Positions 7,550 to 32,300 of a DNA stretch of 33,691 nt are shown here, one piece after another (positions within the stretch are counted from its first letter, which is position 1; each line of letters begins with the position of its first letter). The position numbers were made by a program, and so were the translations under genes. The notes beneath the pieces are model-generated. The model saw only the letters and a program-made list of their open reading frames with translations. It ran no database searches and was not told the origin of the DNA. The stretch is taken from NCBI GenBank assembly GCA_031258835.1, contig JAIRMH010000267.1, positions 1 through 33,691 of the forward strand. Reading direction: 5' to 3'. This DNA is from Tannerella sp. (GTDB lineage: Bacteria; Bacteroidota; Bacteroidia; Bacteroidales; Tannerellaceae).

Positions 7550-7563
7550 AATATTAAATAAAT

Positions 7564-10500: not shown

Positions 10501-10746
10501 CGCAACTCTACCTACTGGCTGCGAAACGGAGCCTATCTCCGCTTCAAAACCATGGAAATCGGCTACACAATTCCGAAACGGATTACGAGTCGCTGGCATA
10601 TCAACAATATACGATTCCATATTATCGGCTCAAATCTTTTTGTATGGGATTATTTGAAAATTTGGGACCCCGAATTGGGTAGCGGACACGGAATGGATTA
10701 TCCGATCGCGAAAAGTTTTACAGCAGGGGTAACAATTAGTTTATAA
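7564..10746 (+). CDS. susC: SusC/RagA-type TonB-dependent outer-membrane transporter
   Basis: Outer-membrane TonB-dependent oligosaccharide transporter of 1060 residues, a normal length for SusC. It has a cleavable signal peptide (ending AQNIFAQQ), an N-terminal carboxypeptidase-regulatory-like beta-sandwich (about 28-110: VSGTVIDENNETMIGVNIYV, GKYTIKV, VFSYLGYDKQ), a TonB box-like stretch (SSVLDEVVITATGAQKK), the plug domain (about 120-235: GVIAMQLSGEPG, IRGISTFGAGSSALVLVDGF, ILKDASATAIYGSRGANGVI) and the 22-strand barrel to the C-terminus, ending in FTAGVTISL with an aromatic/hydrophobic terminal strand. The following susD begins 19 bases downstream. Together they should form the gated lid-and-barrel importer. 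The substrate cannot be read from this protein alone. Confidence 0.97.
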   Translation: MKHIRIFTSAIFFLLCVAQNIFAQQDIQVSGTVIDENNETMIGVNIYVKNEPGFGTVTDNNGKYTIKVKKNVTLVFSYLGYDKQEIDMDGRTTIDVQMLPSESSVLDEVVITATGAQKKVSVSGAITTVDVKTLKTPTANIANALAGNVAGVIAMQLSGEPGSNKSEFWIRGISTFGAGSSALVLVDGFERPFNEINIEDIESFSILKDASATAIYGSRGANGVIIITTKRGDSGKINISGKVEYGYNTRTRTPEFVDGLTYATLINEARRTRNLEPLYNDIELQIIENNLDPDLYPNVDWMDLLLKDGASTYRASINLNGGGTTARYFVSGSYVNEGGMYKTDKALQDYNTNSNMERYNYRMNSDIDITSTSLLRVGVSGFLEKQNRAGLPQSYKTFYYDDVTLYMRGLTKEGIDIWKSIAGYSPVATPLVYQNGLTPAYGTGDYTNPWVVATQTGYNEAWRSKIETNITFEQNFDFITKGLRFIGRFAFDSDNKNNVRHILWPEQHNTQRRRDSSGNLAFFRVSEAKVMSQESDSWGERVYNLEGDLFYNRLFNQTHNVGVFVKYAQRERAETSNVGNDISRGIPRRDQSISGRISYDFLSRYFIEFNGGYTGSEVFKTGHQFGFFPAVSGAWNISEEPLVKGFTSVFDMLKIRYSYGQVGNNKIKRGDDEIRFPYIGTIVGTDDYDYGERDNPNYNDRGSIRDLLFNGGLREGTLAADYLTWEVATKHNLGLDFNLWNNHFSGAFDVFQETRSDIYMERKHLPQYTAILSQPWANIGKMENKGFDGQFNYNRKFGEVDVTMRGNITYTRNKVLEYDEEANALPYKMTQGYRWEQAKGLIALGLFESYDDIRNNPVQEFGAYMPGDIKYKDVNGDGVINDNDEVAIGATRIPSLIYGVGMSAIWKGFDFNMHFQGAGKSSYFINGPAVYPFSEIHQRNTLPWGNILTDVVGNYWSESNPDPNAKYPRLSYGGNSNNYRNSTYWLRNGAYLRFKTMEIGYTIPKRITSRWHINNIRFHIIGSNLFVWDYLKIWDPELGSGHGMDYPIAKSFTAGVTISL

Positions 10747-10765
10747 AATAAAACAGTTATATAAT

Positions 10766-13030
10766 ATGAAAATAAAAAATATCAGCACGTTTTTATTCGC
10801 AGCAATGTTTGCATTTTCTTTCAAAGCTTGCTCCGATTATCTGAATGTAGAACACCTGCTTGATGACCAGATCGACTTAAAGGATGTGTTCGAAAACTTG
10901 GATTATTCCAAGCAATGGTTAGGGGGCGTATATAGCCACCTGCGACACCTCGACAACTGGGATGTCTGCACCAAAGAACAGAATGCCAACCAGTTCAACT
11001 TTATTTCGGACGATATGTACTATACCGACCGCGAAAAAGTGGGCGACTTGGTGTTCGGGCAAATTGCTTCGTATCGCATTTATAGGGGCGGATTATACAC
11101 CGAACAATTCCTGCAAAGGCAGTGGACGGCATGTTATACAGGCATTCGCGACGCGTCCATTTATATTCATAACATCGACCGCCTGGCAAACAACGACAAT
11201 GTTCGCGAGGTTATAGGAGGAGACACAAAATTAGCCGAGCATATTACGAGAACAAAAGCGGAAGCCCGTTTCCTGCGTGCTTACTACTACTGGCTACTCC
11301 TGCGCAAATACGGGCCAATACCTGTTTTGCCCGACGAAGGCGTTAACTTCACCGACAGTTACGAAGATTTATCCTTTCCGCGTAGCCGCTACGACGTATG
11401 CGTTGAGTACATCGCTTCCGAAATGGCTTTAGCGGCTCAGGATTTACCATGGAAACAGGAACTCGGCATCAACGAAATAATGAAAGCGAACAAAAGCGCT
11501 GCGCTGGCAATACGCGCAAAAGTATATCTCTTTGGTGCAAGTCCCCAATACAACGGTAACACAAACGATTGGGCGGGCAAGTTGATTAATTACGACGGTA
11601 CTCCGCTCATCGATCCCATATACAAGGAAGAGCGTTGGGCTAAAGCCGCTGCCGCCGCTAAGGAATTAATAGACGAGGGTAAACATAACCTTTATACCGT
11701 TTCGATACGATCGGCAAGCGCTAGCAATATGAAAGGGGCGGCAGGTTCTACCTTGGGTTTTGATTATTATCGCTATCCGAAAACCATAGCGCCGGGTGGA
11801 ACAATAGTTCCCGACGGAAACAACTGGAAGATTGAAACGCAACCTGTTCGGGGCTATTCCGACGTGCCTTTTGGCGAGGGTGGGCCGGAGTGCGGATGGA
11901 GCGATATCGATCCCTGCGAATCGTATCGCCAACTTTTCGACGGATCCCTCTCGGCTTATGCCAATCCCGAACTGATATTCACGCGCGGATACGGGGACGA
12001 AATGAATAACCTCTCCTTTCACCAAATGCCTCGTTCACAGGGTGGATGGAACTGCCACGGCTTGACGTTAAAAATGTTCGACGCCTATTATATGGCGGAT
12101 GGATCCGACTTTTACCGCTACAAGGAAGGAAGTGACGAAAAAGGCAATCCGTATTATTACAGCGACCCCGGAGCGGAAGTACCGGCTTATGCCAAAGCAT
12201 ATACAACGTCTTCATCAACACGTAATTTCGATTACTACACCAAATGGATGCCGTTGCCTCCGGGCGTTTCTTTGCAAAATGGCAACCGTGAACCGCGTTT
12301 TTATGCTTCGGTGGCTTACAACGGTAGTATTTGGGAAAACTTAGGGAGCGCTACCAAAGACAACAAACGCAACCAGCAGATATTTATTTACCGCAACTGC
12401 GGCGATGGAAAGGATGCTTCGGGTTTCTATTACTGGACAGGTATCGGTATCCGCAAATACTATAACCCGGAAGACTGGTCGGGAAGTCGCATCCCAAAAG
12501 CCGAACCGGCTATTCGTTATGCCGACGTTTTGCTTACGTATGCCGAAGCGATCAACGAGTTGACGGGAGAACATTCTATTCCCTCTTACGATGGAAAAAG
12601 GATGATAAACGTTAGCCGCAATCAAACGGAAATAAGCAGGGGATTACGTCCCGTCAGGGTACGCGCCGGTTTGAATGACTTTACCGACGAGTATTTCAAT
12701 AGTCAAGCCGAAATGCGCAAACGCATCAAACGTGAATGGCAGATTGAATTTATGGGCGAAGCCCACCGCTATTACGACCTCCGACGCTGGGGTGACGCCG
12801 AACGCGAAGAATCCATGCCCGTTTATGGCTACAATATGGATATGATCGGACCTCTCACTTATGATGCAAATGATTTCGGGCAAAGAGATCTTTGGCATAT
12901 TCCGCATGAAATTTCGCTTGTCCCGGCTATTTTTTCCGAAAAAATGTATCTCTGGCCCATCTCGCAGGATGAATTGAGAAAAGACAGGAAAATGACACAA
13001 AATCCCGGATGGAAAACGTTCGAAGAATAA
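10766..13030 (+). CDS. susD: SusD/RagB-type outer-membrane glycan-binding lipoprotein, long variant
   Basis: Cell-surface lipoprotein that forms the lid of the SusC channel and binds oligosaccharide. The lipobox is in FAFSFKACSDYL. Family signatures are clear: an N-terminal TPR-type helical part with AEARFLRAYYYWLLLRKYGP and IPVLPDEG, the segment SAALAIRAKVYLFGASPQYN, the C-terminal core AIRYADVLLTYAEAINELTG, and the signature IKREWQIEFMGEAHRYYDLR followed by RWGDAE. At 754 residues it is longer than the usual 500-650; the extra material seems to lie in the middle (about 300-560), rich in Tyr, Trp and Gly, as expected for loops around a binding site. It follows susC by 19 bases. Confidence 0.96.
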   Translation: MKIKNISTFLFAAMFAFSFKACSDYLNVEHLLDDQIDLKDVFENLDYSKQWLGGVYSHLRHLDNWDVCTKEQNANQFNFISDDMYYTDREKVGDLVFGQIASYRIYRGGLYTEQFLQRQWTACYTGIRDASIYIHNIDRLANNDNVREVIGGDTKLAEHITRTKAEARFLRAYYYWLLLRKYGPIPVLPDEGVNFTDSYEDLSFPRSRYDVCVEYIASEMALAAQDLPWKQELGINEIMKANKSAALAIRAKVYLFGASPQYNGNTNDWAGKLINYDGTPLIDPIYKEERWAKAAAAAKELIDEGKHNLYTVSIRSASASNMKGAAGSTLGFDYYRYPKTIAPGGTIVPDGNNWKIETQPVRGYSDVPFGEGGPECGWSDIDPCESYRQLFDGSLSAYANPELIFTRGYGDEMNNLSFHQMPRSQGGWNCHGLTLKMFDAYYMADGSDFYRYKEGSDEKGNPYYYSDPGAEVPAYAKAYTTSSSTRNFDYYTKWMPLPPGVSLQNGNREPRFYASVAYNGSIWENLGSATKDNKRNQQIFIYRNCGDGKDASGFYYWTGIGIRKYYNPEDWSGSRIPKAEPAIRYADVLLTYAEAINELTGEHSIPSYDGKRMINVSRNQTEISRGLRPVRVRAGLNDFTDEYFNSQAEMRKRIKREWQIEFMGEAHRYYDLRRWGDAEREESMPVYGYNMDMIGPLTYDANDFGQRDLWHIPHEISLVPAIFSEKMYLWPISQDELRKDRKMTQNPGWKTFEE

Positions 13031-13143
13031 ATAAAATGGCGCTGTCATTGCAAGGATGCAGCCCGGAGCAATCCACGATGGCTTCGCCCGAAAGATCGCA
13101 ATGGCAAAATGCTCTTAGTTTTTAACTTTTAGTTTATTTATGT
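13031..13143. repeat. Dispersed GTCATTGC-type intergenic repeat after susD
   Basis: The spacer holds GTCATTGCAAGGATG at its start, then GGAGCAATCC and GATCGCAATGG. This resembles the widespread bacterial intergenic repeat with the pattern GTCATTGCGAGG...AAGCAATCC. Arms CATTGC (13046-13051) and GCAATG (13098-13103) are complementary. The element is degenerate and ends just before GCTCTTAGTT (13111-13120), a decamer also found in the next spacer. Confidence 0.55.
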
Positions 13144-14124
13144 ATGAAACAAACAATTTTTTATAGTATAATCGCTGTTCTGGCCACAATATTTTCTGCT
13201 TGCAACGACGAGTGGGAAGACGAACAGTACAAAAAATACGTGGCCTTTGTTCGTTCCGGCTACACGGAAATAAATTTGAACTCCAACGTTGCCGATGGCG
13301 TGATTCATTACAAGATTCCAATAATAATCAGCGGTTCTACCGGCAACGACCGCGATGTGACGGTAACAGTTGCACTCGATCGCGACACGCTGGATGATTA
13401 CAATATTGCGATGTATTACAAGCGCAACGATTTGTTTTTCCGCCTGCTCGAAGAAAAGCATTACGATTTCCCCAACGGAACAACCGTTACCATTCCCGCC
13501 GGAGAAAATGTAGGCTGCCTGGATATTGATTTCAAGATTAAAGAAGAGAACGAACTGGATTTGGTTGAAAAATACATTTTGCCTTTGCAAATTGTTTCGA
13601 CTTCCGAATACCTCCCTTCTCCTCATAAATGGTACAAAAAATCGTTAATGCGCATCATCCCCTTCAACTATTTTTCGGGAACTTATGCGGCTGGAGCCGC
13701 CTTAATCACTGCGGAAGGCAGTTCCGAATCAACTTCGGTGGAAAGCCGAGAGATGCGTGTAGTTAACGACAGCGCCGTTTTCTTCTATGCCGGATTGTGC
13801 GAAGAAAACGCGCGCGACAGGGCTACCTACAAAGTACGGGTACAGTTTAATGACGACCATTCGCTGACTTTTTCCGCCGACAGCGCCAAAATTAATTTTG
13901 AGGCCAATCCGGAAAAATGTAAATGGAGCTTAAAAGAAGAAATGGACGCTTTGCAACCCTACTTGATGATACGCACCATAAACATGGAATTGCAATATTC
14001 TTACGAAGACGTAACGAATCCGGATTATAAGGTAAAATATACGCTTAAAGGTTTTTATACGCTGGAACGCCGAAGGAACATACAAATTCCCGAAGAAGAC
14101 CAGCAGGTAATATTTGATTGGTAA
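13144..14124 (+). CDS. DUF4973/DUF1735-type surface lipoprotein
   Basis: Predicted lipoprotein of 326 residues in the SusE/F-like position behind susD. The signal ends in a lipobox (LATIFSACNDEWED). The region about 25-150 fits the DUF4973/DUF1735 beta-sandwich type: YVAFVRSGYTEINLN, a long YKIPIIISGS strand, VTVALDRDTLDDYN, TTVTIPAGENVGCLDIDF and KYILPLQIVSTSEY. The remainder (about 175-326) has the features of a lipocalin-like or DUF4361-type sandwich: FSGTYAAGAALI, then alternating strands ending LKGFYTLERRRNIQIPEED. Such proteins are thought to sit on the cell surface and bind glycan; that is family-level knowledge, not shown here. It is flanked on both sides by spacers with hairpin elements, unlike the compact genes before it. 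Confidence 0.85.
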   Translation: MKQTIFYSIIAVLATIFSACNDEWEDEQYKKYVAFVRSGYTEINLNSNVADGVIHYKIPIIISGSTGNDRDVTVTVALDRDTLDDYNIAMYYKRNDLFFRLLEEKHYDFPNGTTVTIPAGENVGCLDIDFKIKEENELDLVEKYILPLQIVSTSEYLPSPHKWYKKSLMRIIPFNYFSGTYAAGAALITAEGSSESTSVESREMRVVNDSAVFFYAGLCEENARDRATYKVRVQFNDDHSLTFSADSAKINFEANPEKCKWSLKEEMDALQPYLMIRTINMELQYSYEDVTNPDYKVKYTLKGFYTLERRRNIQIPEEDQQVIFDW

Positions 14125-14154
14125 AAAGATTGTCACGGCAGTTTATCAAGCCCG

Positions 14155-14184: not shown

Positions 14185-14251
14185 GTGAAGCAATCATAGC
14201 TCTTAGTTATTTTTATATATTGATCACTTTTTTAATTTAATATAATTTTTC

Positions 14252-17200
14252 ATGAAAAAGACAAAAACTATTTTTTTGACTGCTTGTCTTTCCCTTTTTA
14301 TAACAGGGGGATACGCACAAGCGCCTGTAACACTCTATTCAGGCGAATCTTTACCAACGGAACAAAGTTGGAATGAATGGAAACTCGACAACACGGTAAA
14401 CTCGGTTGCTGCGCCGGTAACGCAAACGCTAACAAACGACGCCCTGAGATTCTCGTCTGTCAATGAAGCGAACCAATTTTCACAATTGGGATGGTACAAA
14501 ACCGGTTTGGGATTGGATTTAAGCAAAGGGTATACCGTCGAAATCAAAGCAAAGCTGAATGTAGCTACAAAAGGCTCGTTTAACATTCAGGGGTTTGACA
14601 ACGAAGGAAAAGGGTTTCGCATAGGTATCAGCGAAACGGCAATCACCAACCAAAGTAATCCCCTGGATTCGACTACGGTGATTGCAAGCAACTTAACCGG
14701 CGATACCGAATTTCATGTTTATCGCCTCACGGCTACCCCTTGGGGACAGATGAACGTGTATCGCGACGCTGTGCTAATCGGAACTTTTCCGCTGAAAGCC
14801 TTCCAATTCGACAACATTATCGAAAACGGCGGATTTGAAGACGAAGAATTTCCCGATTTTCAGAGCAACGCCATTTTGGAAAGGATTTCGGAACGTCCTT
14901 TTGCCGGACAGTCTGCTTTGTTAATAAACAGTGATGGGAAAAACAATGGTACGAATCCCAAAGAAGGCATGACTACGCGCGAATTTCCTCTTAAGCCCGA
15001 TACGGATTACGAGTTTTCCATGACGCGCCGCCGGGCAATACTCAACGATGAATGGGCTTGGCGTGATTTCGGCGCCTATTGGAACACCCAGAGCGGTTCG
15101 GTAAGAGAACAGAATGTTACTAACTCCGCACCCTGTGAAAAATGGTGGAACAACGGCTTTGAGAATCCGGGATGGATAACCGGCACAGAAACATTAAACA
15201 AAGGAAGCGATGTGGATAAAAACACTATCCGCTTTGAATTTCCGTCCTGGATACGGAATACTAACAATACCTCCAAAGTGGCGATTGATAATATTGTTTT
15301 ACGCGAGAAAACAGGTTTAAAAGTGGGAGTTACAACCACGCCGGAATCCGGAATACCCGATCCGGTTTTCCCGGAAGAATATACGAATCTGATCGCGAAC
15401 GGCGGCTTTGAAGATCACACCATAAACAACGACGGTACGACTTACACGTGGACATTAAGTAATGAAGACAATAATAATGAACCGGTAGGTAGTAATTCCT
15501 TGTGGAACGGAAGCGTTCGTATTCAACGCAACGACAAACCGGATGACGAACTGACCGAAGGAAACGGCGCTACCAAATGGGCGCACAGCGGAACTTCCTC
15601 CCTGCGCTTTTCTACCTTAGGCAATAACGCCAATAATTTTGATTTCGTAAAAGAACTGGATGCCGGCAAAACCTATCGTTTCAACTTCTGGCACAAAAAC
15701 CCAAGATGGGACGACTGGGGTTGGTTGAAAGTGAAGATAGGAGATACGGTTATCTGGGGACAGGAATCAAAAGCTCGAAACAATGTCTGGGCGAATGTCG
15801 ATTTGATTTTTACCACTACGAGCGAAAATAAGACCCTGCATCTTTATACCACATCTGCCGATCACGGCGACTGGTTTAATGTTTTTCTCGACGACCTGGT
15901 ATTGTATGAAATAACCGGAGCGGTAGATCCTCAAATAGCCGGAAAAACCAATTTGATTGCCAATGGCGATTTCGAAGATACTTCGATAGACAACGCAGGA
16001 CAAACCTACACATGGGCGCTCGCCTCGGATGTTGAAAGCAACGACAGTAATTATCCCGTAGCGTGGAACGAGCAATGGGGATCTTACGTGCGTATTCAGG
16101 ATAAGCAGAAACAGACAGATACCGGTTTGCAATGGGCGCACAGCGGTAATAACTCCTTGCGCTTCTCTTTTCTTGACGATATGGGTCATGCTCAAACTTT
16201 CGAAGGGCTTTCCTCTGATGTTTATCCGAACACTTACCGGATAAACATGGACTTTAAAAAAGAATTGGAACCGAATAAGACCTATACTTTCGTATTCTGG
16301 ATCAGATCGGCGAACTATGGTGATAAAGGAAAGGTAGCTATTGCCAACGACGATATACGGATATGGGAACAGGAAATGTCAACCCAATTTGTCAACTGGA
16401 CAAGAAAGTCCGTTACTTTCTCGACCACCGCCGCCAACCACACCTTGCGTTTCATTACCGAATTTACCGGATGGTTCAATTTCTATCTCGACGACCTCTT
16501 CCTGTATGAAGAAGATACGTATGTGCCTTATGAAGCCAACGGCGATTCTTATCTTTTCTTCGGCAAATCGCAAAACACGGCAAGCGCCGATATAGAAGTG
16601 GAATATGTGAAAATTATCGACGATGGAGCGTATGCGCCGGGAGAAGAATATGATATCGTCGTTACCTATAATTTGAATGGAGGCGAGGGCGATACGGAAA
16701 GCAATTACAATACGGCAAACGAGGCCGTAACATTGCCCGTACCCACAAGAACGGGTTATACTTTCCTGGGATGGTACGATAACAGCGCTTTCACAGGTGA
16801 AGCCGTAACCGAAATTCCGAAGGAAACCACCGACGATAAAGAATTTTGGGCCAAATGGGAAGCCATTGCTTACACCGTTACTTACAACCTGAATGGCGGT
16901 ACCGGCGACGAAACCGGCACATACACCATCGAAAGCAATACGCTGACATTGCCTGTACCCGCAAGAACGGGTTATACTTTCCGGGGGTGGTACGATAACA
17001 GCGCTTTCACAGGCGAAGCCGTAACCGAAATTCCGGCGGGAAGTACAGGAAATAAAGAGTTTTGGGCCAAATGGGAAGCTATTGCTTACGCTATTACTTA
17101 CAACCTGAATGGCGGTACCGGCGACGAAACCGGCACATACACCATCGAAACTGCCGTAACATTACCTGTTCCCGCAAAGGACGATTATGATTTCGCAGGT

Positions 17201-17539
17201 TGGTATGAAAACGAAGAATTGAGCGGAACTCCCGTAACCGAAATCCCGGTGGGAAGTACGGGAAATAAAGAATTTTGGGCGAAATGGGATATTAAAAATG
17301 CGATAAACACAGTGGACACGGCATTGCGCCTCTATCCGAATCCTGTTGTGAATGGAAAATTAACCATTGGCAACAGTTTGTCCGACGGCGGAAAAATTGA
17401 GATTTACAATCTTCTTGGTACGCTTGCCGGCGTTTATAACACGGCAGGAAGCAAATCGGTAATTGATATTTCGGCGTTGCCCGCAGGAACCTATGTTGTA
17501 AAGACCAGCGGTCAAATAGCTAAAATAGTGAAGAAGTAA
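14252..17539 (+). CDS. T9SS cargo with carbohydrate-binding-like modules and InlB repeats
   Basis: Predicted secreted, surface-attached binding protein of 1095 residues; no catalytic domain is recognised. Parts in order: signal peptide ending GGYAQAP; a LamG-like sandwich about 25-185 (YTVEIKAKLN, FHVYRLTATPWGQMNVYRDA); three galactose-binding-like CBM4/9-type modules, each opening with a variant of NLIANGGFED (about 187, 379 and 567) and having WAHSG(T/N)(S/N)SLRFS and FNVFLDDLVLYE-like strands; a LamG-like closing strand about 767 (YLFFGKSQNTASADIEVEYV); three InlB/Listeria-Bacteroides repeats about 804-1013; and a type A T9SS sorting domain about 1015-1095 (LRLYPNPVVNGKLTIGN, IEIYNLLGTLAGVY, ALPAGTYVVKTSG). 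The N-terminal portion is paralogous to that of the next gene. The signal plus the sorting domain imply transport through T9SS. Function is inferred as glycan capture or adhesion. Confidence 0.85.
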   Translation: MKKTKTIFLTACLSLFITGGYAQAPVTLYSGESLPTEQSWNEWKLDNTVNSVAAPVTQTLTNDALRFSSVNEANQFSQLGWYKTGLGLDLSKGYTVEIKAKLNVATKGSFNIQGFDNEGKGFRIGISETAITNQSNPLDSTTVIASNLTGDTEFHVYRLTATPWGQMNVYRDAVLIGTFPLKAFQFDNIIENGGFEDEEFPDFQSNAILERISERPFAGQSALLINSDGKNNGTNPKEGMTTREFPLKPDTDYEFSMTRRRAILNDEWAWRDFGAYWNTQSGSVREQNVTNSAPCEKWWNNGFENPGWITGTETLNKGSDVDKNTIRFEFPSWIRNTNNTSKVAIDNIVLREKTGLKVGVTTTPESGIPDPVFPEEYTNLIANGGFEDHTINNDGTTYTWTLSNEDNNNEPVGSNSLWNGSVRIQRNDKPDDELTEGNGATKWAHSGTSSLRFSTLGNNANNFDFVKELDAGKTYRFNFWHKNPRWDDWGWLKVKIGDTVIWGQESKARNNVWANVDLIFTTTSENKTLHLYTTSADHGDWFNVFLDDLVLYEITGAVDPQIAGKTNLIANGDFEDTSIDNAGQTYTWALASDVESNDSNYPVAWNEQWGSYVRIQDKQKQTDTGLQWAHSGNNSLRFSFLDDMGHAQTFEGLSSDVYPNTYRINMDFKKELEPNKTYTFVFWIRSANYGDKGKVAIANDDIRIWEQEMSTQFVNWTRKSVTFSTTAANHTLRFITEFTGWFNFYLDDLFLYEEDTYVPYEANGDSYLFFGKSQNTASADIEVEYVKIIDDGAYAPGEEYDIVVTYNLNGGEGDTESNYNTANEAVTLPVPTRTGYTFLGWYDNSAFTGEAVTEIPKETTDDKEFWAKWEAIAYTVTYNLNGGTGDETGTYTIESNTLTLPVPARTGYTFRGWYDNSAFTGEAVTEIPAGSTGNKEFWAKWEAIAYAITYNLNGGTGDETGTYTIETAVTLPVPAKDDYDFAGWYENEELSGTPVTEIPVGSTGNKEFWAKWDIKNAINTVDTALRLYPNPVVNGKLTIGNSLSDGGKIEIYNLLGTLAGVYNTAGSKSVIDISALPAGTYVVKTSGQIAKIVKK
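16661..17290 (+). repeat. Three tandem InlB-type repeats, 216-base period
   Basis: Three in-frame units start at 16661, 16877 and 17093, each opening with (V/I)TYNLNGG and closing with EFWAKW. Units 1 and 2 share a nearly identical second half (TGYTF, WYDNSAFTGEAVTEIP), whereas units 2 and 3 share a nearly identical first half (YNLNGGTGDETGTYTIE). The pattern suggests recent unequal exchange within the array. The units belong to the InlB B-repeat/Listeria-Bacteroides family, which usually acts as a rigid stalk. Confidence 0.85.
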
Positions 17540-17619: not shown

Positions 17620-20600
17620 ATGAAAACAGGTAAAATTATTTTTATAATGATGTGCCTGCTCGTATTTTCGTGGAAGATACAGGCACAATCATTGGTAGAG
17701 ATATATAGAGGTACTTCTTTACCAACCGCACAAGGTTGGAACGAATTACGTTTCGATAATACGATGCCCTGGGAACAGGCGGCAAAAGATTTGTTGGCGC
17801 CCCCTTCGAAGTTTTCGGCTGTTGCCGGTACGACCCTCAAGCTGAAAGTCGACGAAGCGATTAATAGCAACGGTGATTATCCCTTGTATTCACAGTTAGG
17901 CTGGTACAGGACACGTACCGGATTTTCGCCGGCTATTGGTTTTACGGTAGAATTTAAGGCGAAAGTGATTAACTCGCCGAACGGCGCATTTACCGTTTCG
18001 GGCGTTGGCGGAGGCAAAGGTTTCCGTTTGGAATTTTCGAACAACCGGCTTACCGAACACGCCAATGTATTGGATACGGTTCGGGTATTGAGTACCGCCG
18101 GCACTACCGACGCTTATCATGTGTATCGCGTAGCTGTTGCTTCCGATGAAAAAGTGCGCGTATGGCGCGACGGCTCTTTACTGGGCGAATTGCCTTTGCA
18201 AAATTTCAAACTCGACAATATCCTGAAAGACGGCGGTTTTGAAAACGGAGAAGACGCCGAGGCGCATGGCTGGATTTATACGGATGAAGGAAAAAGCGGC
18301 TCTATTACCGTAACTGCCGACCCCAACTACGTGCATACGGGAAAATACGGTTTGTATGTGAATAAGGGACTGCATAAAAACGATTTTATCCCCGTGAAGC
18401 CGGGAGCGGTATACGATATGACGGCCTGGGGAAAAGTCATTTCCTATCCTGAGGGAGATAATAATTGGCGTGACTTTAACGGCTGGCACGATCCGGCAGC
18501 CGACAAAAGCGTGTATTTTGTAGCCGACAGAAATAACCCGGATTGGAAATACTACGAAAAACTGGGGATGGAAGGCGGAGCGCATTTCCAGCGGTTTATT
18601 GTGGAAACGCCTACCGGCGATAATAATACGAATCAAATGGCGTTTGACGATCTGCATTACAGCGAACGCATTACTGCTTCCCGCATTCCTGCCGGCGCGG
18701 TGAATATCTTCCCCAACGGCGATTTTGAAGACCCTTGTTACGATTATTTCCCGACCGGCGACTCGCGCAACGACACTTGCATCGTTAATCCGGACAACTA
18801 TCGCTATTCAGCCGATACTTATTATGGCGGACAGGCGGACAATGATGCAGGATGGTTTGACCCGCCTTACTATGCCGAACACAACGCAGCCCCTTTCTGG
18901 CATCCTTTTTGGGGAGCGCGCGTGCGTATGCAGTACGACAGACAACCCGGTAGCGATGAAGCAGGAAACCACTATGCACGCGGAAAATACTCCCTGCGCT
19001 ACTTCAATTGCGGAGGTGCTAACATCGGATACGGTGAAGACTTTTCCTCCGGAATAGGGGAAAACCGAGGTAGCAACAGCGAAATCAAAACAGTACCCAT
19101 CAATCTTGAAGTCGGTAAAAAATACACCTTCCTTTTTGCGTATCATAATGCTAAATACGAAGGAGACGGAATGAATGTGATTGTAAAAAACGGCAACCGG
19201 GAAATTTACCGAAGGGAAGCCAAAGGCAGTAATACTTTCCCTGAGTGGAGAGACGAGGTAATCGAATTTACAACCGATGCGGACAACCATGCGCTTCAAA
19301 TCCGGACCGAACGCATTGCCGGCAACTGGGAAGGATACCCGTATACGCCCAGCGTTATCTATTTTGACGATTTCTTCCTCTTCGAAGGCGAACTCCTGCC
19401 CCAGGACCATACACACCTCTTTTTCGGAAAACAAACCGGAACGAACGGGGTGGAAGTAGAGATTGAATATATAAAAATAGACAATACAGGCGCTTATACT
19501 CCCGACGGAACTCCTATCTCCTCGTCTTACACAAAGAAAGAGGCTCCGCTGATGACGGTCTGGGGCGAAGCATTGCAGCCGACCGACCCGATTTTGAACG
19601 AATATCCGCGTCCGCAACTCAAACGGGAAGGTTGGACAAACCTAAACGGTATTTGGGATTATACCTGTAAAAACAAAGACGATTTCGGTATATACAAGGC
19701 TAATGAAACCTATAATCAGGAAATACTGGTTCCTTTCCCTGCCGAATCGGCTCTTTCGGGAATTATGGAAGTTGAATACAACAACCAAAATAAAGTTCAC
19801 ATTTACAAACGTACTGCAACGATTGCAAAACCTTCCGATAGCAGAAGAGTGATATTGAACTTCGGCGCAATAGACTGGGAAAGTTACGTATTTGTGAACG
19901 GACAGGAAGTAGCTCACCACAAAGGAGGCTTCGATCCTTTCTCTGCCGATATTACCGATAAGTTAAATACAAACGGCAATCAGGAAATCGTAATACAGGC
20001 ATTTGACCCGACACGGGGCGGACAACCTTCCGGAAAACAATCCCCAACTCCGGACGCAACAAACTACACGCCCGCATCGGGTATCTGGCAAACCGTCTGG
20101 ACGGAACTCGTAAACCCGGCTTATGTAACCGGTGTGGCGCTCACTCCGGTGGATAACACGGCGGTAAAAGTAAAAGTGGAAGCCGCCAATGCCGGTGGCG
20201 CTACGGCTACCGTGAAAGTGTTCGACGGAGCCAACCAGGTAGCAACGGCCAATGTTGCTGTAGGTACGGAAACGGCTATTCCCATCGCCAACGCAAAACT
20301 CTGGTCGCCCGAAACGCCTTTCCTCTACAATGTAAAAGTAGAACTGAAAAAAGACGGCGTAGCCGCCGACGAAGTAACTTCCTATTTCGGTATGCGTAAA
20401 ATAGAAGTGAAAAAATTGCGCGATAAACCCTTCGTTTACCTGAACGAACTTCCGGTATTCAGCTATGCAACCCTCGACCAAGGCTATTTCCCCGACGGCA
20501 TTTACACGCCGGCCTCTTACGATGTTTTCCGCCACGACCTCTTGAAACTGAAAGAACTTGGCTTCAACGCCGTGCGCAAATTTGAAAAGATTGAACCGGC

Positions 20601-23001
20601 CATCTGGTATCACCTCGCCGACTCGCTCGGGTTCCTTGTATGGCAAGACATACCGGCCGCCCACAATGTTTCTGGGGCGATTGCCGAACTCAGTACCGAA
20701 GCGGCACGCAAAGCCAACTTCCTGCGCGAAACGGCTGCAATGAGCAAGAGTATCCGCAACTTCCCGTCTATCGTGGCATGGATTGGATTCAACGATAGCT
20801 GGGGACAATACGAAGGTACTATCGAACACACCAAAAACACCGTCGACTTGCTCCGCTCGCTGAACGACGGACGTCTTATCGTTCCCGAATCGGGCGGAGA
20901 CCATTTTGAACTCGGAGACGCGGTTTCGTCTCATGGTTTACCTACGCCTGTTTTGCACGCCAACGCTTACAACGAGCGCGCTTCGATTTGCGGAGTAACC
21001 GGTAATTACAATTATGCGATCAGCGGGAACATTTGGGACTCAAGCAGTTCGAGCGACATTAAAGATGACTCGACTTATGCCGCCCGTTTGGGAGAGTTTA
21101 CCGCTGCCGCCGGAAGTCTTACACTATCAGGTATAAGCGGTTTGGCAATGGTGCAAACTACCGACGTTGAAAGAGAAATCAACGGTTTGGTGACCTACGA
21201 TCGCAAAGTCTACAAGTATGCCGGTTCGGACAGCATAGCCGGTAAGGTATTGAAAGAAAATACGGCCTTTATGAAAACGAAGATTACCGCGCCCATCCTG
21301 AAATTGCAAGCTCAGGGAGGTGAAACATGGAAATACCTGGACGGGGCAAAAGATATGCCTGAACCTCCATCCGGATGGAACAGCAATCCCACATTCGACG
21401 ACAGCAGTTGGCTCGAAGGTTTGTCGGCGTTCGGCGACAGAACATCGTGGAACACTTACTGGGGCGGCTCGGATCGCGGATTGTATCTCCGTAAAATGGT
21501 CGATATTCCTGTTTTGGAACCAGGCGACAGCTTGAAGTTCACTATGTTTTACGATGATTTCTTTGAATTTTACATCAATGGCGTATTGGCGGCTTCTGTA
21601 GTAGACGCCGGTCAATGTTGGGTCGATGATTATGTAAGCATTACTATTTCCGATGCGGCGAAAGCCGCCATCCAATACGGCAGTGCCAACCTGTTTGCGC
21701 TTCATGTGGGCCAAAACACCGGCGGTGCGTATATGGACTTGGGCGTAACGACTACCAAACTGTCTTATCCGATCAATTATGAAATTCCGGATGTAACCCC
21801 GCAATGGATAGAGATTGCTACGGCCGAAGAATGGAACAATATAGCGAACAACCTCGACGGTTTCTACCGCCTGACAGCTGATATTGATCTCAATGAAGTT
21901 ACATACATGCCTGTCGGCAGCACCAATTCTCCTTTCAAGGGTTACATTGACGGACAAAACCACACGGTTGTATGTCCCGAAATGCGCAATTACAGCAACG
22001 ACCGCATTGGCTTGTTCGCCTGTGCCGATGGCGCTTATTTTGTTAATCTGCGCTTTACAGGGGCATATATAGATGTTGCCGAGCGAGCCGATGTAGGTGT
22101 TTTGCTTGGCCGCGGTAAAGGTATTACGGTAGAACACGTCGTATTCGACGTACACGAAACTTATGGAGGAATCGTAGTCAACGGCCGTGAACATGTCGGT
22201 ATTGTTGCCGGTATGCTCGAAAGCGGTAAATTATCGACCATTAAAGACGTATATGTTGTAGACGGCGCGGTTGAATCGACCGAAAACCAGGCGGGAGGAT
22301 TAGTGGGAATCATGTGCGATACGCGCATTACCAATTCCTACTTTACCGGAACAGTGGCCATCACCCACGACAGTCGCTTAACAGCAGACAATCGCGACGC
22401 TTCGGGTATCGCGGCGCAACTCGAAGGCGGTCATAATTTCCTCAAAGGTGTAATGTCGCTGGCAACAAGTATCGGGAGCGCTTCGGGAAACGAATTTATT
22501 TCATACAACGGCGGCGGATATGTTGATATCGACTCGGCTACCTGCTTTGTCCGAAACAATATGACGCTCGACCCCTTGCAAGACTCGAACCGATCCGGAC
22601 AGTTTGCCCGTGCATCCGAATCAATGAAACGCCCGGAAAGCGCTTTCAAATCTTATCCCTTGTATGCCGGAGCCGGCTGGGATCTGATAAATAGATGGGG
22701 AATCCCGAAAGGAGGCGGGTACCCGATTTTCAGAACAATTCCAGGCGCCGAATTTGAACCCTACACGTCTGTGCCGGTAGTAACAAAACCGGAAAACAAA
22801 ATGAAAGTTTATTCGACCGGTGGCAATGTAGTCCTGGTGGCCGACCAACCGACTGCCGTTTGGATATACAACCTGCAAGGTTTGCTGGTAGAACGTACGG
22901 ACATCGACAGAACGCAAACGATTGCGCTGCCGCATGATATTTACATCGTGAGATCGGTGCAAAACGGCAGCGTGAAGACAGTGAAAATTATAAACAGGTA
23001 A
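17620..23001 (+). CDS. Giant GH2-like protein with substituted catalytic residues, CBMs, GLUG beta-helix and sorting domain
   Basis: Secreted modular protein of 1793 residues. Order: signal peptide ending KIQAQ; LamG-like sandwich about 25-200; two CBM4/9-like modules (about 205-345, NILKDGGFENGED; about 355-595, NIFPNGDFEDPC); a closing LamG-like strand (LFFGKQTGTNGVEVEIEYIK); a GH2 unit about 644-1225 (EYPRPQLKREGWTNLNGIWD; SGIWQTVWTEL; TIM barrel from about 932); a jelly roll about 1236-1390; a repeat region about 1395-1700 with GLUG-type turns (GGLVGIMCDTRITNSYFTG); and a C-terminal segment about 1725-1793 resembling a T9SS sorting domain (VWIYNLQGLLVE, IYIVRSVQNGSVKTVKI). In the GH2 barrel the acid/base motif FNE is FND (Asp1059), and the nucleophile motif CGEYGG of the neighbouring GH2 proteins is CGVTGN (Val1126). 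It is therefore probably not a working glycosidase, and more likely a binding protein. Confidence 0.85.
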   Translation: MKTGKIIFIMMCLLVFSWKIQAQSLVEIYRGTSLPTAQGWNELRFDNTMPWEQAAKDLLAPPSKFSAVAGTTLKLKVDEAINSNGDYPLYSQLGWYRTRTGFSPAIGFTVEFKAKVINSPNGAFTVSGVGGGKGFRLEFSNNRLTEHANVLDTVRVLSTAGTTDAYHVYRVAVASDEKVRVWRDGSLLGELPLQNFKLDNILKDGGFENGEDAEAHGWIYTDEGKSGSITVTADPNYVHTGKYGLYVNKGLHKNDFIPVKPGAVYDMTAWGKVISYPEGDNNWRDFNGWHDPAADKSVYFVADRNNPDWKYYEKLGMEGGAHFQRFIVETPTGDNNTNQMAFDDLHYSERITASRIPAGAVNIFPNGDFEDPCYDYFPTGDSRNDTCIVNPDNYRYSADTYYGGQADNDAGWFDPPYYAEHNAAPFWHPFWGARVRMQYDRQPGSDEAGNHYARGKYSLRYFNCGGANIGYGEDFSSGIGENRGSNSEIKTVPINLEVGKKYTFLFAYHNAKYEGDGMNVIVKNGNREIYRREAKGSNTFPEWRDEVIEFTTDADNHALQIRTERIAGNWEGYPYTPSVIYFDDFFLFEGELLPQDHTHLFFGKQTGTNGVEVEIEYIKIDNTGAYTPDGTPISSSYTKKEAPLMTVWGEALQPTDPILNEYPRPQLKREGWTNLNGIWDYTCKNKDDFGIYKANETYNQEILVPFPAESALSGIMEVEYNNQNKVHIYKRTATIAKPSDSRRVILNFGAIDWESYVFVNGQEVAHHKGGFDPFSADITDKLNTNGNQEIVIQAFDPTRGGQPSGKQSPTPDATNYTPASGIWQTVWTELVNPAYVTGVALTPVDNTAVKVKVEAANAGGATATVKVFDGANQVATANVAVGTETAIPIANAKLWSPETPFLYNVKVELKKDGVAADEVTSYFGMRKIEVKKLRDKPFVYLNELPVFSYATLDQGYFPDGIYTPASYDVFRHDLLKLKELGFNAVRKFEKIEPAIWYHLADSLGFLVWQDIPAAHNVSGAIAELSTEAARKANFLRETAAMSKSIRNFPSIVAWIGFNDSWGQYEGTIEHTKNTVDLLRSLNDGRLIVPESGGDHFELGDAVSSHGLPTPVLHANAYNERASICGVTGNYNYAISGNIWDSSSSSDIKDDSTYAARLGEFTAAAGSLTLSGISGLAMVQTTDVEREINGLVTYDRKVYKYAGSDSIAGKVLKENTAFMKTKITAPILKLQAQGGETWKYLDGAKDMPEPPSGWNSNPTFDDSSWLEGLSAFGDRTSWNTYWGGSDRGLYLRKMVDIPVLEPGDSLKFTMFYDDFFEFYINGVLAASVVDAGQCWVDDYVSITISDAAKAAIQYGSANLFALHVGQNTGGAYMDLGVTTTKLSYPINYEIPDVTPQWIEIATAEEWNNIANNLDGFYRLTADIDLNEVTYMPVGSTNSPFKGYIDGQNHTVVCPEMRNYSNDRIGLFACADGAYFVNLRFTGAYIDVAERADVGVLLGRGKGITVEHVVFDVHETYGGIVVNGREHVGIVAGMLESGKLSTIKDVYVVDGAVESTENQAGGLVGIMCDTRITNSYFTGTVAITHDSRLTADNRDASGIAAQLEGGHNFLKGVMSLATSIGSASGNEFISYNGGGYVDIDSATCFVRNNMTLDPLQDSNRSGQFARASESMKRPESAFKSYPLYAGAGWDLINRWGIPKGGGYPIFRTIPGAEFEPYTSVPVVTKPENKMKVYSTGGNVVLVADQPTAVWIYNLQGLLVERTDIDRTQTIALPHDIYIVRSVQNGSVKTVKIINR

Positions 23002-23134: not shown

Positions 23135-25477
23135 ATGATCTCAAAAAACAAAAGTAAAAACAAATGGACTTTATTTCCGATGTGCTTTGCAATGCTTTTT
23201 CCGCACATCCTTTTTGCTCAAACACCCTACGAAAAGAAAACCGCAACATTAATGACGACTTGGGGTGAAAATCTTCGGGCGACCGATCCGGTTTTGCCCG
23301 AATACCCCCGTCCCCAGATGATGCGCGAAAAATGGCTGAACCTGAACGGAATCTGGCAATTCCAACCGGCTGCAAGCGCAACGGAAGCCCTGCCCGCCGG
23401 AAATCTCTCGCGGGAAATCCTGGTGCCTTTCCCTGTAGAATCGGCCCTTTCGGGCATCATGGAACACCACGAAAACGTCTGGTACCGCCGTTCGTTTACC
23501 GTTCCGGCAGACTGGGCGGGGCAACAGACGCTGCTTCATTTCGGGGCGGTCGATTACGCTTGCGAAATCTTTGTCAATGGCAAAAGCCTGGGTACGCATG
23601 AAGGAGGATACGACCCCTTTTCGTTCGACATAACGGACAAGCTGACCGCTAGCGGAAAGCAAGACCTCGCCGTCAGAGTCAGCGACCCGACCGACGCCAA
23701 AGGTTATCCCAGAGGGAAACAAACCCTTTACCCCGGAGGCATCATGTACACGTCCACCACCGGCATTTGGCAAACGGTATGGCTCGAAGCGGTACCTCCG
23801 ACCCGTATCGACGCTTTCCGCATGATCCCGGACATCGACTGCGCCGTTTTGAAATTTTATCCGACCACAGGCGGACAAAACATCCGAAGCCTGAAATTTC
23901 GCTTTCAAATTTACGACAACGGCCTCGAAATCGCCCGTACAACGCAAAGCTACCGGTCGGAAATGATACTGAACGTCCCTCAACCGCTCAAACTCTGGTC
24001 GCCCGACAGCCCTTTCCTCTACGATATGAAGGTTTTCCTCATCAACGGAACGGAAGTCATCGATTCCGTTTCAACCTATTTCGGGATGCGGAAAATATCA
24101 AGTAAATTAGTAAAGGGCCAATACAGGATGTGCCTCAACAATGAACCGCTTTTCCAGATGGGACCGCTCGACCAGGGCTTCTGGCCCGACGGAATCTATA
24201 CCGCACCCGCCGACGAAGCATTACGATTCGATATTGAAAAAACAAAAGCGTTAGGTTTCAATATGATACGAAAGCATATCAAAGTAGAACCGCAACGCTG
24301 GTATTACTGGTGCGACAAGCTCGGAATGTTGGTCTGGCAGGATATGCCTTCCATGAATTCGTATATCGACACGGGTAAACGTCCGATGCCGCCGCGTGAA
24401 GATGCCGCTTTTGAACGCGAACTCGAAGCGATGATAAAAACGCACTGGAACTCGCCCGCTATCGTTTCGTGGGTCATATTTAACGAATTTCAGGGTTTGC
24501 ACGGTGAGCCGAAACGGGTTGGTCAGGTTAAAAAATGGGACGATAGCCGCTTAGTCAATGTAAACAGCGGCGTGAATGATACGCGATACGGCAATACCGG
24601 TACCGACATCCTGGATTATCACAGTTATCCGCCCCCGGTCTGTCCACCGACAGCAGGATCGCAAATTCGCGTTTGCGGCGAATACGGCGGTATCGGTTAT
24701 TTCGAAAAAGGACATATTTGGAGCGAAGGAAATCCCTACGAAACGGTAGACAGTCGCGCCAAACTGCTGGATAAATACACGCTCTACGGCGAAATGCTGA
24801 TTTATTACAAAAGCAACAAAGGTTTAAGCGCCGCCGTCTACACCGAAATTACCGATGTGGAAATGGAATTGAACGGCTTGATGACTTACGACCGCAAGAT
24901 GATTAAAGGAAACAGAGAAGATTTCTTTGCCGTCAATCAGCGAATTATAAACGAAGAGCAATATTATACCGGTGTTGTCCCCACTGCGGACGAACGCGCC
25001 CAGACATGGAAATATACGACCTCTCAGCCGGACGACGCATGGATTTCCAGCAGCTTTGATGATTCGGAATGGACAACAGGCCTTGGCGGTTTCGGAACGG
25101 AAAAAACGCCGGAAGCGGTTATCAAAACGACCTGGAACACAGAAAATATCTGGTTGCGACGGACATTCTATTTGCCGGCAAATGCACTCGAATCGGAAAA
25201 ACTGATGCTCAAAGTACATCACGACGAAGATTGCCGGATATACATCAACGGCATAAATGCGCTCAATCTGACGGGTTACACCGGAGATTACGCTCTCCAC
25301 GATATATCGCCGGACGCCCGCGCAGCTCTGGTTCCGGACGGCGAAAACACCCTGGCTGTATATTGCCGGCAAACACGCGGAGGACAATACATCGACGCAG
25401 GTATTTATAAAAAAGAGACAAATAAACAGGTTAGCAAGTTAACAAATAATTCAAAATTCAAAATTCAAAATGATTAA
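23135..25477 (+). CDS. GH2 family glycoside hydrolase with C-terminal jelly roll
   Basis: Exported GH2 exo-glycosidase, probably beta-galactosidase-, beta-glucuronidase- or arabinosidase-like; the specificity is not determined. It has 780 residues. Signal peptide about 1-29 (FPMCFAMLFPHILFAQ). GH2 N-terminal sandwich about 38-225 (EYPRPQMMREKWLNLNGIWQ, VPFPVESALSGIM, FVNGKSLGTHEGGYDPFSFD), Ig-like sandwich about 225-305, TIM barrel about 305-610 with LGFNMIRKHIKVEPQRWYYW, acid/base Glu451 in IFNEFQG and nucleophile Glu516 in CGEYGG, and a jelly roll about 620-757 (HHDEDCRIYINGI, YCRQTRGGQYIDAG). No T9SS sorting domain is visible. The last 20 or so residues (KKETNKQVSKLTNNSKFKIQ) are encoded by spacer-type repetitive DNA. 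The stop overlaps the next ATG by 8 bases. It is a close paralogue of the first half of the last gene in the window. Confidence 0.93.
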   Translation: MISKNKSKNKWTLFPMCFAMLFPHILFAQTPYEKKTATLMTTWGENLRATDPVLPEYPRPQMMREKWLNLNGIWQFQPAASATEALPAGNLSREILVPFPVESALSGIMEHHENVWYRRSFTVPADWAGQQTLLHFGAVDYACEIFVNGKSLGTHEGGYDPFSFDITDKLTASGKQDLAVRVSDPTDAKGYPRGKQTLYPGGIMYTSTTGIWQTVWLEAVPPTRIDAFRMIPDIDCAVLKFYPTTGGQNIRSLKFRFQIYDNGLEIARTTQSYRSEMILNVPQPLKLWSPDSPFLYDMKVFLINGTEVIDSVSTYFGMRKISSKLVKGQYRMCLNNEPLFQMGPLDQGFWPDGIYTAPADEALRFDIEKTKALGFNMIRKHIKVEPQRWYYWCDKLGMLVWQDMPSMNSYIDTGKRPMPPREDAAFERELEAMIKTHWNSPAIVSWVIFNEFQGLHGEPKRVGQVKKWDDSRLVNVNSGVNDTRYGNTGTDILDYHSYPPPVCPPTAGSQIRVCGEYGGIGYFEKGHIWSEGNPYETVDSRAKLLDKYTLYGEMLIYYKSNKGLSAAVYTEITDVEMELNGLMTYDRKMIKGNREDFFAVNQRIINEEQYYTGVVPTADERAQTWKYTTSQPDDAWISSSFDDSEWTTGLGGFGTEKTPEAVIKTTWNTENIWLRRTFYLPANALESEKLMLKVHHDEDCRIYINGINALNLTGYTGDYALHDISPDARAALVPDGENTLAVYCRQTRGGQYIDAGIYKKETNKQVSKLTNNSKFKIQND
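25447..25470 (+). repeat. ATTCAAA tandem repeat at a gene junction
   Basis: Three near-perfect copies of ATTCAAA(A) lie across the 3' end of the GH2 gene and run into the ATG of the next gene. Similar short A/T-rich repeats are common between genes in Bacteroidota. Here they are translated (NSKFKIQND), which suggests that the original stop codon of the GH2 gene was lost or moved. Confidence 0.6.
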
Positions 25478-29366: not shown

Positions 29367-32300
29367 ATGATTTCAAAAAACAAAAAAACACAAACATTAC
29401 TTCTGATGTGCGCAATAATACTTTTCCCGCACATCCTTTCCGCGCAATTGCCGTACACGAAAAAGACGGCTGCGTTAATGACCCCCTGGGGCGAAGCGCT
29501 TCAAGCGACCGATCCGGTTTTGCCTGAATACCCCCGTCCCCAGATGGTACGGGAAAAATGGCTGAACCTGAACGGTATCTGGCAATTCCAGCCCGCTGCA
29601 AGTGCAACGGAAGCCTTGCCTGCCGGAAACCTCTCGCGGGAAATACTGGTCCCTTTTCCGGTCGAATCAGCTCTTTCGGGCATCATGGAACAGCACGAAA
29701 ACGTCTGGTACCGCCGTTCCTTTACCGTACCCGAAGACTGGGCGGGACAACAAGTACTGCTCCATTTCGGAGCCGTCGATTACACCTGCGAAGTCTTTAT
29801 TAACAGAGAAAGCATCGGAACGCACCAGGGCGGTTACGACCCCTTTTCATTCGACATAACGGACAAATTGACCGGCGCCGGCGCACAGGATATCGCCCTC
29901 CGGGTCAGCGACCCGACCGATGCCAAAGGCTACCCCCGCGGCAAACAAACCCTCTATCCCGGAGGCATCATGTACACTTCCACCACCGGTATCTGGCAAA
30001 CGGTATGGATCGAACCGGTGCCGCAAAATTATGCTATTGCCGATTTCCGTATGGTACCCGACATCGACAACGCCGTCCTGAAATTCTATCCCGCCGTGCG
30101 CGGGAAATACCGCTTTAAGATCTACGACAGGGGAACGGAAATTGCCGATTGGGAAAAAGACATTTCCGGTTCGTCGGCAGGCGCTGATTTGGCGATTCCG
30201 CAACCGATCAAGCTGTGGTCGCCCGACAGCCCGTTTCTATACGACATGAAGGTATTCCGGATCAATGGAACAGAAATCGTCGATTCCGTTTCAACCTATT
30301 TCGGGATGCGTAAGATCTCCAAACAACTCGTCGACGGTTATCAACGAATGATGCTCAACAACCGGTTTCTTTTCCAAATGGGGCCGCTCGACCAGGGCTT
30401 CTGGCCCGACGGTATCTATACCGCCCCAACCGACGAAGCCTTGCGCTTCGATATTGAAAAAATCAAAGAATTAGGCTTCAATATGGTACGAAAACACATC
30501 AAAGTAGAACCGCAACGATGGTATTACTGGTGCGACAAACTCGGAATAATGGTCTGGCAGGACATGCCCTCCATGAATTCTTATATCAATACGAATGAGC
30601 ATCCCGTGCCGGCGCGCGAAGACGCCGCCTTCAAACGGGAACTCGAAGCAATGATAAAAACGCACCGGAACTCTCCCGCTATCGTTTCGTGGGTCATATT
30701 TAACGAATACCAGGGGTCGCACAATGAAAACACGCTCGCCGATCAGGTGAAAAGCCTCGATAATAGCCGCCTGGTCAATATAAACAGCGGCGTGAACGAT
30801 ACGCGCTACGACACGAACAGTACCGATGTCCGCGATTACCACAACTATGCGCCTCCGGTAGCGCCGCCCAAAAATACAGCGAACACCCAAGCGCTGGTTT
30901 GCGGCGAATACGGCGGTGTCGGCTATTACGAACAAGGGCATTTCTGGAGCGAAGGCAATCCCTACGCAACGGTAAACAGTTATGCAGAACTGCTGGAAAG
31001 ATACACCGAATACGCTAACATGCTGATCGATTTCAAAAGCAACAAAGGCCTGAGCGCAGCCGTATATACCGAAATCACCGATGTGGAAATGGAACTGAAC
31101 GGTTTGATTACCTACGACCGCGAAGTCCTTAAAGGCTATGCCAAGGATTTCTATGACGTCAACCGGAGGATTATCAACGAATACCGGTATTATACCACCA
31201 TTGCCCCTACTTCCGAAGAAACGCCTCAGACCTGGAAGTACACAACTACCCAGCCGGCGGCAAACTGGTTTGAGCCGGTTTTTAACGATGCGGGCTGGAC
31301 AACCGGCAACGGCGGTTTCGGAACGGAAAATACGCCCGGCGCTGTTGTTGGAACAATCTGGAACAGCACGAATATCTGGCTGCGCCGGACGTTTACTTTA
31401 CCCGCTCAGGCAATCGAACAAGCTACGCTGATACTCCGCCTGCATCACGACGAAGATTGCCGGATTTACATCAACGGCGTGAAAGCGCTCGAACAGACCG
31501 GTTACACCTCCGGTTATGCTTACTACTCGATTACGCCGGAAGCGCAAGCGGCCCTGGTTCCGGACGGCGAAAACGTCCTGGCGGTGTATTGCTATCAAAC
31601 AAACGGCGGACAATACATCGACGTGGGCGTTTCGACGATGATCTTAACCGGCTCCGACGAAAACGACGCTTATTCCAATCCGGTAGTTGCACAAAGCTTG
31701 CCCGACCCAACGGTTATCCGTGCCGACGACGGCTATTTCTACCTCTATGCAACGGAAAATATCCGCAACATCCCCATTTACCGTTCGATCGATTTGGTCG
31801 ACTGGACTTTTCAGGGAACGGCTTTTACCGATGCTTCCCGTCCTACATTTGAACCCGACGGCGGATTGTGGGCGCCGGACATTAATTTCATCAACGGGAA
31901 ATATGTCCTTTACTATTCCATGTCGGTCTGGGGCGGCGAGCAAACATGCGGGATAGGTGTCGCCACGTCCGATTCGCCGCAAGGCCCTTTTACCGACCTG
32001 GGGAAACTCTTTCGCAGCAGCGAAATAGGCGTTCGGAACTCGATCGACCCGTTTTACATCGAAGAAAATGGGAAAAAATACCTCTTTTGGGGCAGCTTTC
32101 ACGGCATTTATTACGTGGAATTGAGCGACGATGGGCTTGCGCTGAAATATCCCGACAATCCGCAGCCGCAACAGGTGGCCGGAACGGCCTTTGAAGGTAC
32201 ATACATCTACAAGCGCGGCGATTATTATTATCTTTTTGCTTCCGTCGGATCGTGCTGCGAAGGTTTGAACAGTACGTATCAATTGGTAGCAGGACGTTCC

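Follow-up and report, generated by a model that had tools for sequence, protein, structure and literature searches.

Among the closest described systems is BACOVA_03431 of Bacteroides ovatus, an inactive GH10 lipoprotein encoded in a PUL, which has lost its catalytic nucleophile and binds xylan at the surface, as demonstrated by experiment (PMC4491172). Other pseudo-glycosidases that bind glycans are listed in a review (PMC7828330), and a beetle GH28 pseudoenzyme reported to be without substrate binding (PMC8213348) provides a counter-precedent. Within GH2, a survey attributes arabinofuranosidase and galactofuranosidase activities to subfamilies GH2_18 and GH2_19, describes GH2_19 members (PDB 7XYR) in which the motif NE is naturally replaced by TV, NA or NQ, and calls the nucleophile Glu invariant (PMC12243196). 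GalfNeoLect, a lectin engineered as the E464Q variant of a Streptomyces galactofuranosidase, is a GH2 furanosidase in which catalysis is weakened and the sugar is bound (PMC11084152); according to the abstract of that paper no galactofuranose-specific lectin is naturally available, and human intelectin-1, which has Galf among other ligands, served as a control. Our own literature search, which covered few subscription journals, returned no title describing a GH2 pseudoenzyme.

Here, we analysed P0001, encoded in a SusC/SusD locus of Tannerella sp. (assembly GCA_031258835.1, contig JAIRMH010000267.1) within a window of 33,691 nucleotides, i.e. the whole stretch of DNA under study. Like BACOVA_03431, P0001 is a GH homologue in a PUL that has lost its catalytic nucleophile; unlike it, P0001 belongs to GH2, shows no visible lipobox, carries a putative T9SS-type tail and a large CBM-like block, has both catalytic carboxylates replaced, and is a putative rather than an experimentally established binder. 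Its likeness to the GH2_18 furanosidases (9J6M/9J6N; subfamily taken from PMC12243196) extends over residues 632-1200 and includes the kept Arg986, Asn1058 and Thr1181, whereas the nucleophile, the acid/base Glu and the equivalents of His988 and Tyr1107 are replaced. With GH2_19, a sister subfamily, it shares the natural loss of the acid/base motif, but in P0001 the nucleophile described as invariant is lost too. GalfNeoLect, finally, is likewise a GH2 furanosidase with weakened catalysis, but results from a single man-made acid/base change that leaves residual activity, whereas P0001 has been rebuilt naturally at many sites, the nucleophile among them, and is a putative binder. The features of P0001 and its surroundings are listed below, with positions counted from the first letter of the window.

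7564..14124, + strand: SusC, SusD and DUF4973/BT_3987-like genes of the same locus.
14252..17539, + strand: P0004, the upstream gene, with the N-terminal block, List_Bact repeats and a Por_Secre_tail.
17620..23001 (stop codon included), + strand: P0001, a predicted secreted multidomain pseudo-GH2 protein of 1793 aa, in an open frame of full length.
17620..17688, + strand: P0001 putative signal peptide, approximately residues 1-23, from visual inspection.
17689..19515, + strand: CBM-like N-terminal block, residues 24-632, with a CBM_4_9 match (profile and homology).
19777..20397, + strand: GH2 sugar-binding (sandwich) and immunoglobulin-like domains, residues 720-926 (Pfam PF02837, PF00703).
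20425..21234, + strand: GH2 TIM-barrel, catalytically degenerate, residues ~936-1205 (PF02836 at 968-1093; 7sf2/9j6n alignment to 1200).
20581..20583, + strand: Phe988, where 179 of 180 homologues have His and L037 has Phe.
20584..20586, + strand: Glu989, a new acid beside Phe988, found among the 180 homologues in L037 only.
20794..20796, + strand: Asp1059 at the acid/base position, codon GAT (E in 178 of 179 homologue rows).
20887..20901, + strand: Glu1090 to Asp1094; Glu1090 recurs only in L037, Asp1094 in L037 and one other of 180.
20926..20940, + strand: SSHGL, with Ser1103 (usually Asp), the kept His1105 and Leu1107 (usually Tyr), from the homologue alignment.
20995..20997, + strand: Val1126 at the nucleophile position, codon GTA (E in 171 of 172 rows, Ile in L037).
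21337..21774, + strand: post-barrel domain, about residues 1240-1385, also in P0002 and P0003, whose matches reach 1378 and 1381.
21790..22764, + strand: GLUG-like region, about residues 1391-1715, a sub-threshold Pfam match also present in the intact L056, L089 and L090.
22792..22998, + strand: T9SS type A-like C-terminal sorting tail (TIGR04183, 21.9 bits, cut-off 23).
23135..25477, + strand: P0002, a GH2 protein with the Glu pair intact.
29367..33689, + strand: P0003, a GH2 (intact pair) with GH43, Big_2 and GDSL-type domains, open at the window end.

At the level of its sequence, P0001 has the GH2 fold and domain order, with PF02837, PF00703 and PF02836 all scoring above their cut-offs between residues 720 and 1093. 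Solved structures aligned over long stretches, 7sf2 along residues 644-1200 (E 2e-112) and 9j6n/9j6m along 632-1200 (E 6e-108 to 7e-108), and the bit scores (380 for 7sf2, 365 for 9j6n, 237 for 7xyr) suggest that the GH2 part may be nearest to the GH2_18 furanosidases.

The sequence-only reading had proposed that the acid/base Glu is replaced by Asp1059 and the nucleophile Glu by Val1126, and that both neighbouring GH2 proteins keep Glu at each place. Alignment of P0001 with P0002 and P0003 set Asp1059 opposite the Glu of FNE and Val1126 opposite the Glu of CGEYGG; together with the codons it bears out both substitutions, and both neighbours have Glu at the two positions, as do 7sf2, 9j6n and 9j6m, the solved relatives compared residue by residue. 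The third proposed change, of HSYP to SSHGLP, held in part: Asp1103 has become Ser and Tyr1107 Leu, but the His is kept as His1105. We extended the comparison to an alignment of 180 homologue rows plus P0001, drawn from the window, its genome, genus, family, order and phylum and from the family of a second genome (G511, see below), after 13 hits had been dropped as duplicates or short; it succeeds a 78-row alignment from which matches above E 1e-90, duplicates contained in other rows and pieces of ~300 aa or less had been left out. Of the rows that have a letter, 171 of 172 read E in the nucleophile column and 178 of 179 in the acid/base column (eight rows and one row, respectively, have no letter there because the local match or the frame ends early), and the sole exception in both is L037, the orthologue of P0001 in a Candidatus Symbiothrix MAG, with Ile as nucleophile and Asp as acid/base. 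The suggested search for relatives with both substitutions thus yielded this one protein, with Ile, not Val, in the second place. L037 is again the odd row at position 988 (His in 179/180) and at position 1107 (Tyr in 177/178), where P0001 has Leu and L037 Lys; His1105, present in P0001, is lost only in L037 (Asn). As a separate observation, six genomes of the family encode, near the first, a second and diverged GH2-like protein (L038, L039, L041, L042, L046 and L047), which has Glu at the acid/base position and whose local alignment with P0001 stops short of the nucleophile.

Replacement is spread over the barrel. At 71 barrel positions with a conservation of 97% or more across 171 active relatives, P0001 differs at 16 and L037 at 17, as against a maximum of 6 and a median of 0 in the actives themselves, on which the positions were chosen, favouring low numbers. 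Besides the residues already named, the near-invariant residues replaced include His988 (now Phe), Tyr1177 (Met), Thr1178 (Val) and Gly950 (Ala), and by the Kyte-Doolittle scale 12 of the 16 changes in P0001 raise hydrophobicity, two are neutral and two lower it. Arg986, Asn1058, Thr1181 and Asp1182 are retained; the Thr1181 column is T in 162 of the 172 rows with a letter, and its equation with the loop-8 Thr of the survey is our own assignment. The new acids common to the degenerate pair are among 11 positions listed for P0001/L037. Taken together, the alignment indicates an active site that is rebuilt, not merely knocked out.

Candidatus Symbiothrix is reported to live as an ectosymbiont on flagellates of the termite gut (PMC11481507). 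The genome of the MAG, G511, has the gene split over two contigs, and the two proteins are 59% identical over P0001 residues 1-644 and 65% over 870-1793; both genomes have the N-terminal block fused to the GH2 start. The neighbours are kept as well. The first G511 contig (L091:2243-13715) carries relatives of the NHL, SusC, SusD, DUF4973 and P0004 genes in the order and direction of window positions 6089-17539, and the second carries a relative of P0002/P0003. At the far end, both genomes have a glutaminase-like gene, which is only 50.6% identical and points the other way in G511. The RpoB proteins of the window genome and G511 share 79.1% identity along 915 residues, compared with 89.0% for the window genome against a genus mate, and with 89.2% and 90.5% for G511 against the genomes G527 and G535, so that the two hosts of the degenerate protein are distant and apparently belong to different families. 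The identities of SusC and of the degenerate barrel, about 75%, are close to this RpoB value, and hint at horizontal transfer of the locus.

No third degenerate member was found among the 180 homologue rows with catalytic positions read, and the degenerate protein is present in only two of the genomes searched. The searches, made with P0001 or its GH2 part, covered the genus of the window (41 genomes, E 1e-60), its family (123 genomes, E 1e-80), its order (393 genomes, E 1e-115), the family of G182 (5 genomes, E 1e-118), the family of G511 (45 genomes, E 1e-125) and the phylum (394 genomes, E 1e-50, with 5 of 43 listed places set aside as short partial matches); these sets overlap, and the cut-offs hide weaker matches, so a more diverged degenerate member may have been missed. 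In viral contigs, 71 stretches matched an alignment pattern of the relatives, none of them encoding a relative.

The degenerate domain is not decaying and is under purifying selection. Over the Ig-plus-barrel part (residues 870-1210, 329 codons) the pair is 74.2% identical with a dN/dS of 0.184; the barrel segment of P0002 and its G511 relative, which also groups with P0003 and is not a strict one-to-one orthologue, gave 75.3% and 0.166, and SusC of the two genomes gave 75.0% and 0.154. Across P0001, dN/dS was 0.18 to 0.28 in each segment tested (Nei-Gojobori; dS 0.9 to 1.7, i.e. partly saturated), the least conserved segment being the post-barrel domain (51.4%, 0.277). In the barrel alone, 195 of 263 residues are identical in the degenerate pair and 195 of 262 in P0002 and its relative. 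With strand and loop numbers assigned from sequence motifs and the survey (PMC12243196), the segments around presumed strands 2 and 4 are identical throughout in the pair (16/16 and 17/17; 16/16 and 12/15 in the P0002 comparison), and presumed loop 6 matches at 5 of 11 positions, as it does for P0002, with 8 of 11 for P0003. In a careful 26-row tree the pair groups with support 100/100 on a stem of 0.89, with tips of 0.18 and 0.20, and its next of kin are intact; for the intact sister pair L089/L090 the stem measures 0.10 and the tips 0.21 and 0.26. A quick 81-row tree gave the degenerate pair a longer stem (1.16; tips 0.20 and 0.24), and the stem length is approximate, given the difference between the trees and the missing first part of the domain in L037. 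Judging from the alignment and the careful tree, the clade that lost the catalytic residues sits within a set of intact enzymes, and the branch lengths point to a burst of change and, after it, a return to constraint. The proposal that P0001 is a pseudo-glycosidase is therefore upheld by the loss of both carboxylates, an orthologue with the same loss, and purifying selection on the degenerate domain.

The repurposed enzyme had further been thought to have gained its accessory modules, namely CBM-like modules, a GLUG beta-helix and a sorting-type C-terminus. Three proteins with Glu at both catalytic places, L056, L089 and L090 (genomes G182, G527 and G535), are 42-43% identical to P0001 along residues 635-1792 and possess the same GLUG-like region and tail; they differ from P0001 in their intact Glu pair and in frames that start directly at the GH2 part, without the N-terminal block. 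Since these intact sisters carry the C-terminal region, the tail predates the catalytic loss, and we reject an addition of this region at the time of that loss. What survives of the idea is the N-terminal block. In a search of the order (393 genomes, E 1e-20), it occurred only in the window genome, in P0001 and the upstream P0004, and it is also found in G511; by these searches it is special to the degenerate lineage, and it was perhaps exchanged with the neighbouring gene, the P0004 and P0001 versions being 31% identical over residues 1-586. By eye, the block looks like a concanavalin-like domain with CBM-like inserts.

As to the modules themselves, CBM_4_9 is unlisted in the scan of whole P0001 but passes on the N-terminal 633 residues alone (30.5 bits against a cut-off of 25.9, E 5e-7). 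The GLUG match (PF07581) is weak, at 15.6 bits against the Pfam cut-off of 20.5, and a single PHROGs family of unknown function matched residues 1398-1491. The last 123 residues had no Pfam match. A sorting tail was likewise missing from the whole-protein scan; NCBIfam TIGR04183 scored 21.9 bits on the last 100 residues, short of its cut-off of 23, but 32 bits in the tail of the orthologue. The window genome encodes SprA in a near full-length frame (2791 bits). P0001 would thus reach the surface by means of its signal peptide and a T9SS-type tail; in the lack of a lipobox Cys visible by eye at its N-terminus, it differs from typical SGBPs.

Besides P0002 and P0003, the locus encodes an HU-like protein and a GH43 with CBM35. 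The best NCBIfam match of the GH43 part of P0003 is AbnA, below cut-off, and the GDSL-type domain of the same protein is a lipase. The activities of GH2_18 and GH2_19, together with the GH2/GH43 neighbours, suggest that the likely target of the locus is a furanose-decorated plant glycan, arabinan- or galactofuranose-like.

We consider it most probable (about 0.6) that P0001 is a secreted, non-catalytic pseudo-GH2 that captures glycan for the SusCD locus of an arabinofuranose/galactofuranose-type PUL, with predicted surface location and putative binding. A GH2 would have lost the retaining machinery in one lineage and then been held by purifying selection; signal peptide and T9SS-type tail would bring the protein to the cell surface, where a furanose-decorated glycan would be captured mainly through the N-terminal CBM-like block, the barrel acting as a rebuilt secondary site or as scaffold, and the captured glycan would be handed to SusCD and to the active GH2/GH43 enzymes. 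Glycan recognition is plausible given the position of the gene and the precedents, and the emphasis on the N-terminal block follows from the lean of the old-pocket changes towards hydrophobic residues and from the beetle GH28 case (PMC8213348). Weighing against the favoured reading are the missing lipobox, the sub-threshold tail in P0001 itself and the occurrence in just two of the genomes searched, as well as presumed loop 6, which differs between the orthologues, although P0002 does no better there. The same shift argues against a sugar still held in the old pocket. It is unlikely that the barrel still binds arabinofuranose or galactofuranose without cutting, as a natural GalfNeoLect; that the nearest solved relatives include the beta-D-galactofuranosidase 9j6n/9j6m, that Arg986, Asn1058 and Thr1181 are kept, and that a weakened GH2 furanosidase can bind (PMC11084152) speak for such a pocket, whereas GalfNeoLect differs from its parent at one residue and here the equivalents of His988, Asp1103, Tyr1107 and Thr1178 are gone as well. 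Somewhat less doubtful, though still not the reading we favour, is a barrel outside glycan chemistry altogether, i.e. a rigid scaffold or docking surface for a protein partner (e.g. an active GH2 or SusCD); all sugar would then be bound by the CBM-like block, if at all. The increased hydrophobicity at 12 of the 16 positions, the high conservation regardless of the loss, as expected of an interaction surface, and the lost substrate binding of the beetle pseudoenzyme are all consistent with this; the fully identical segments around strands 2 and 4 of the pair suggest that the old active-site face partly matters, but discriminate weakly, strand 2 of P0002 being fully identical too.

A rewired enzyme, in which Asp1059 remains the acid and Glu989 (presumed strand 2), Glu1090 and Asp1094 (both presumed strand 5) serve as new carboxylates for a different mechanism or substrate, is very unlikely. 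The narrower version, a moved active site made up of Asp1059 together with Glu989 and Glu1090 at the three-strand spacing of the canonical strand-4/strand-7 pair, would be a shade more improbable. The exclusive sharing of Glu989 and Glu1090 by P0001 and L037 among the 180, and of Asp1094 by these two and one other, favours such rewiring, as does a different Glu hypothesised as acid/base for GH2_21 (PMC12243196); the same survey, however, treats the nucleophile Glu as fixed across GH2, a burst of change would be expected to leave some shared new acids by chance, and the strand placement of the acids derives from motifs and not from coordinates. Lastly, a pseudogene or an assembly artefact, to which the fragmented state of the window genome (354 contigs, completeness 86%, contamination 4.9%) might give rise, has a negligible probability: the open frame is of full length, and we rejected this explanation on the basis of an orthologue with the same kind of changes in another assembly and the low dN/dS throughout. 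The reading we favour is a surface glycan-capture protein that would bind through its N-terminal block, with the barrel as rebuilt site or scaffold.

As the survey calls the nucleophile Glu invariant, a GH2 clade that has lost it and yet is strongly conserved would offer a natural test of what the scaffold does without the chemistry, for which the intact sisters and the active neighbours of P0001 are ready-made controls. If P0001 binds furanose glycans, it would be the natural counterpart of an engineered furanose lectin.
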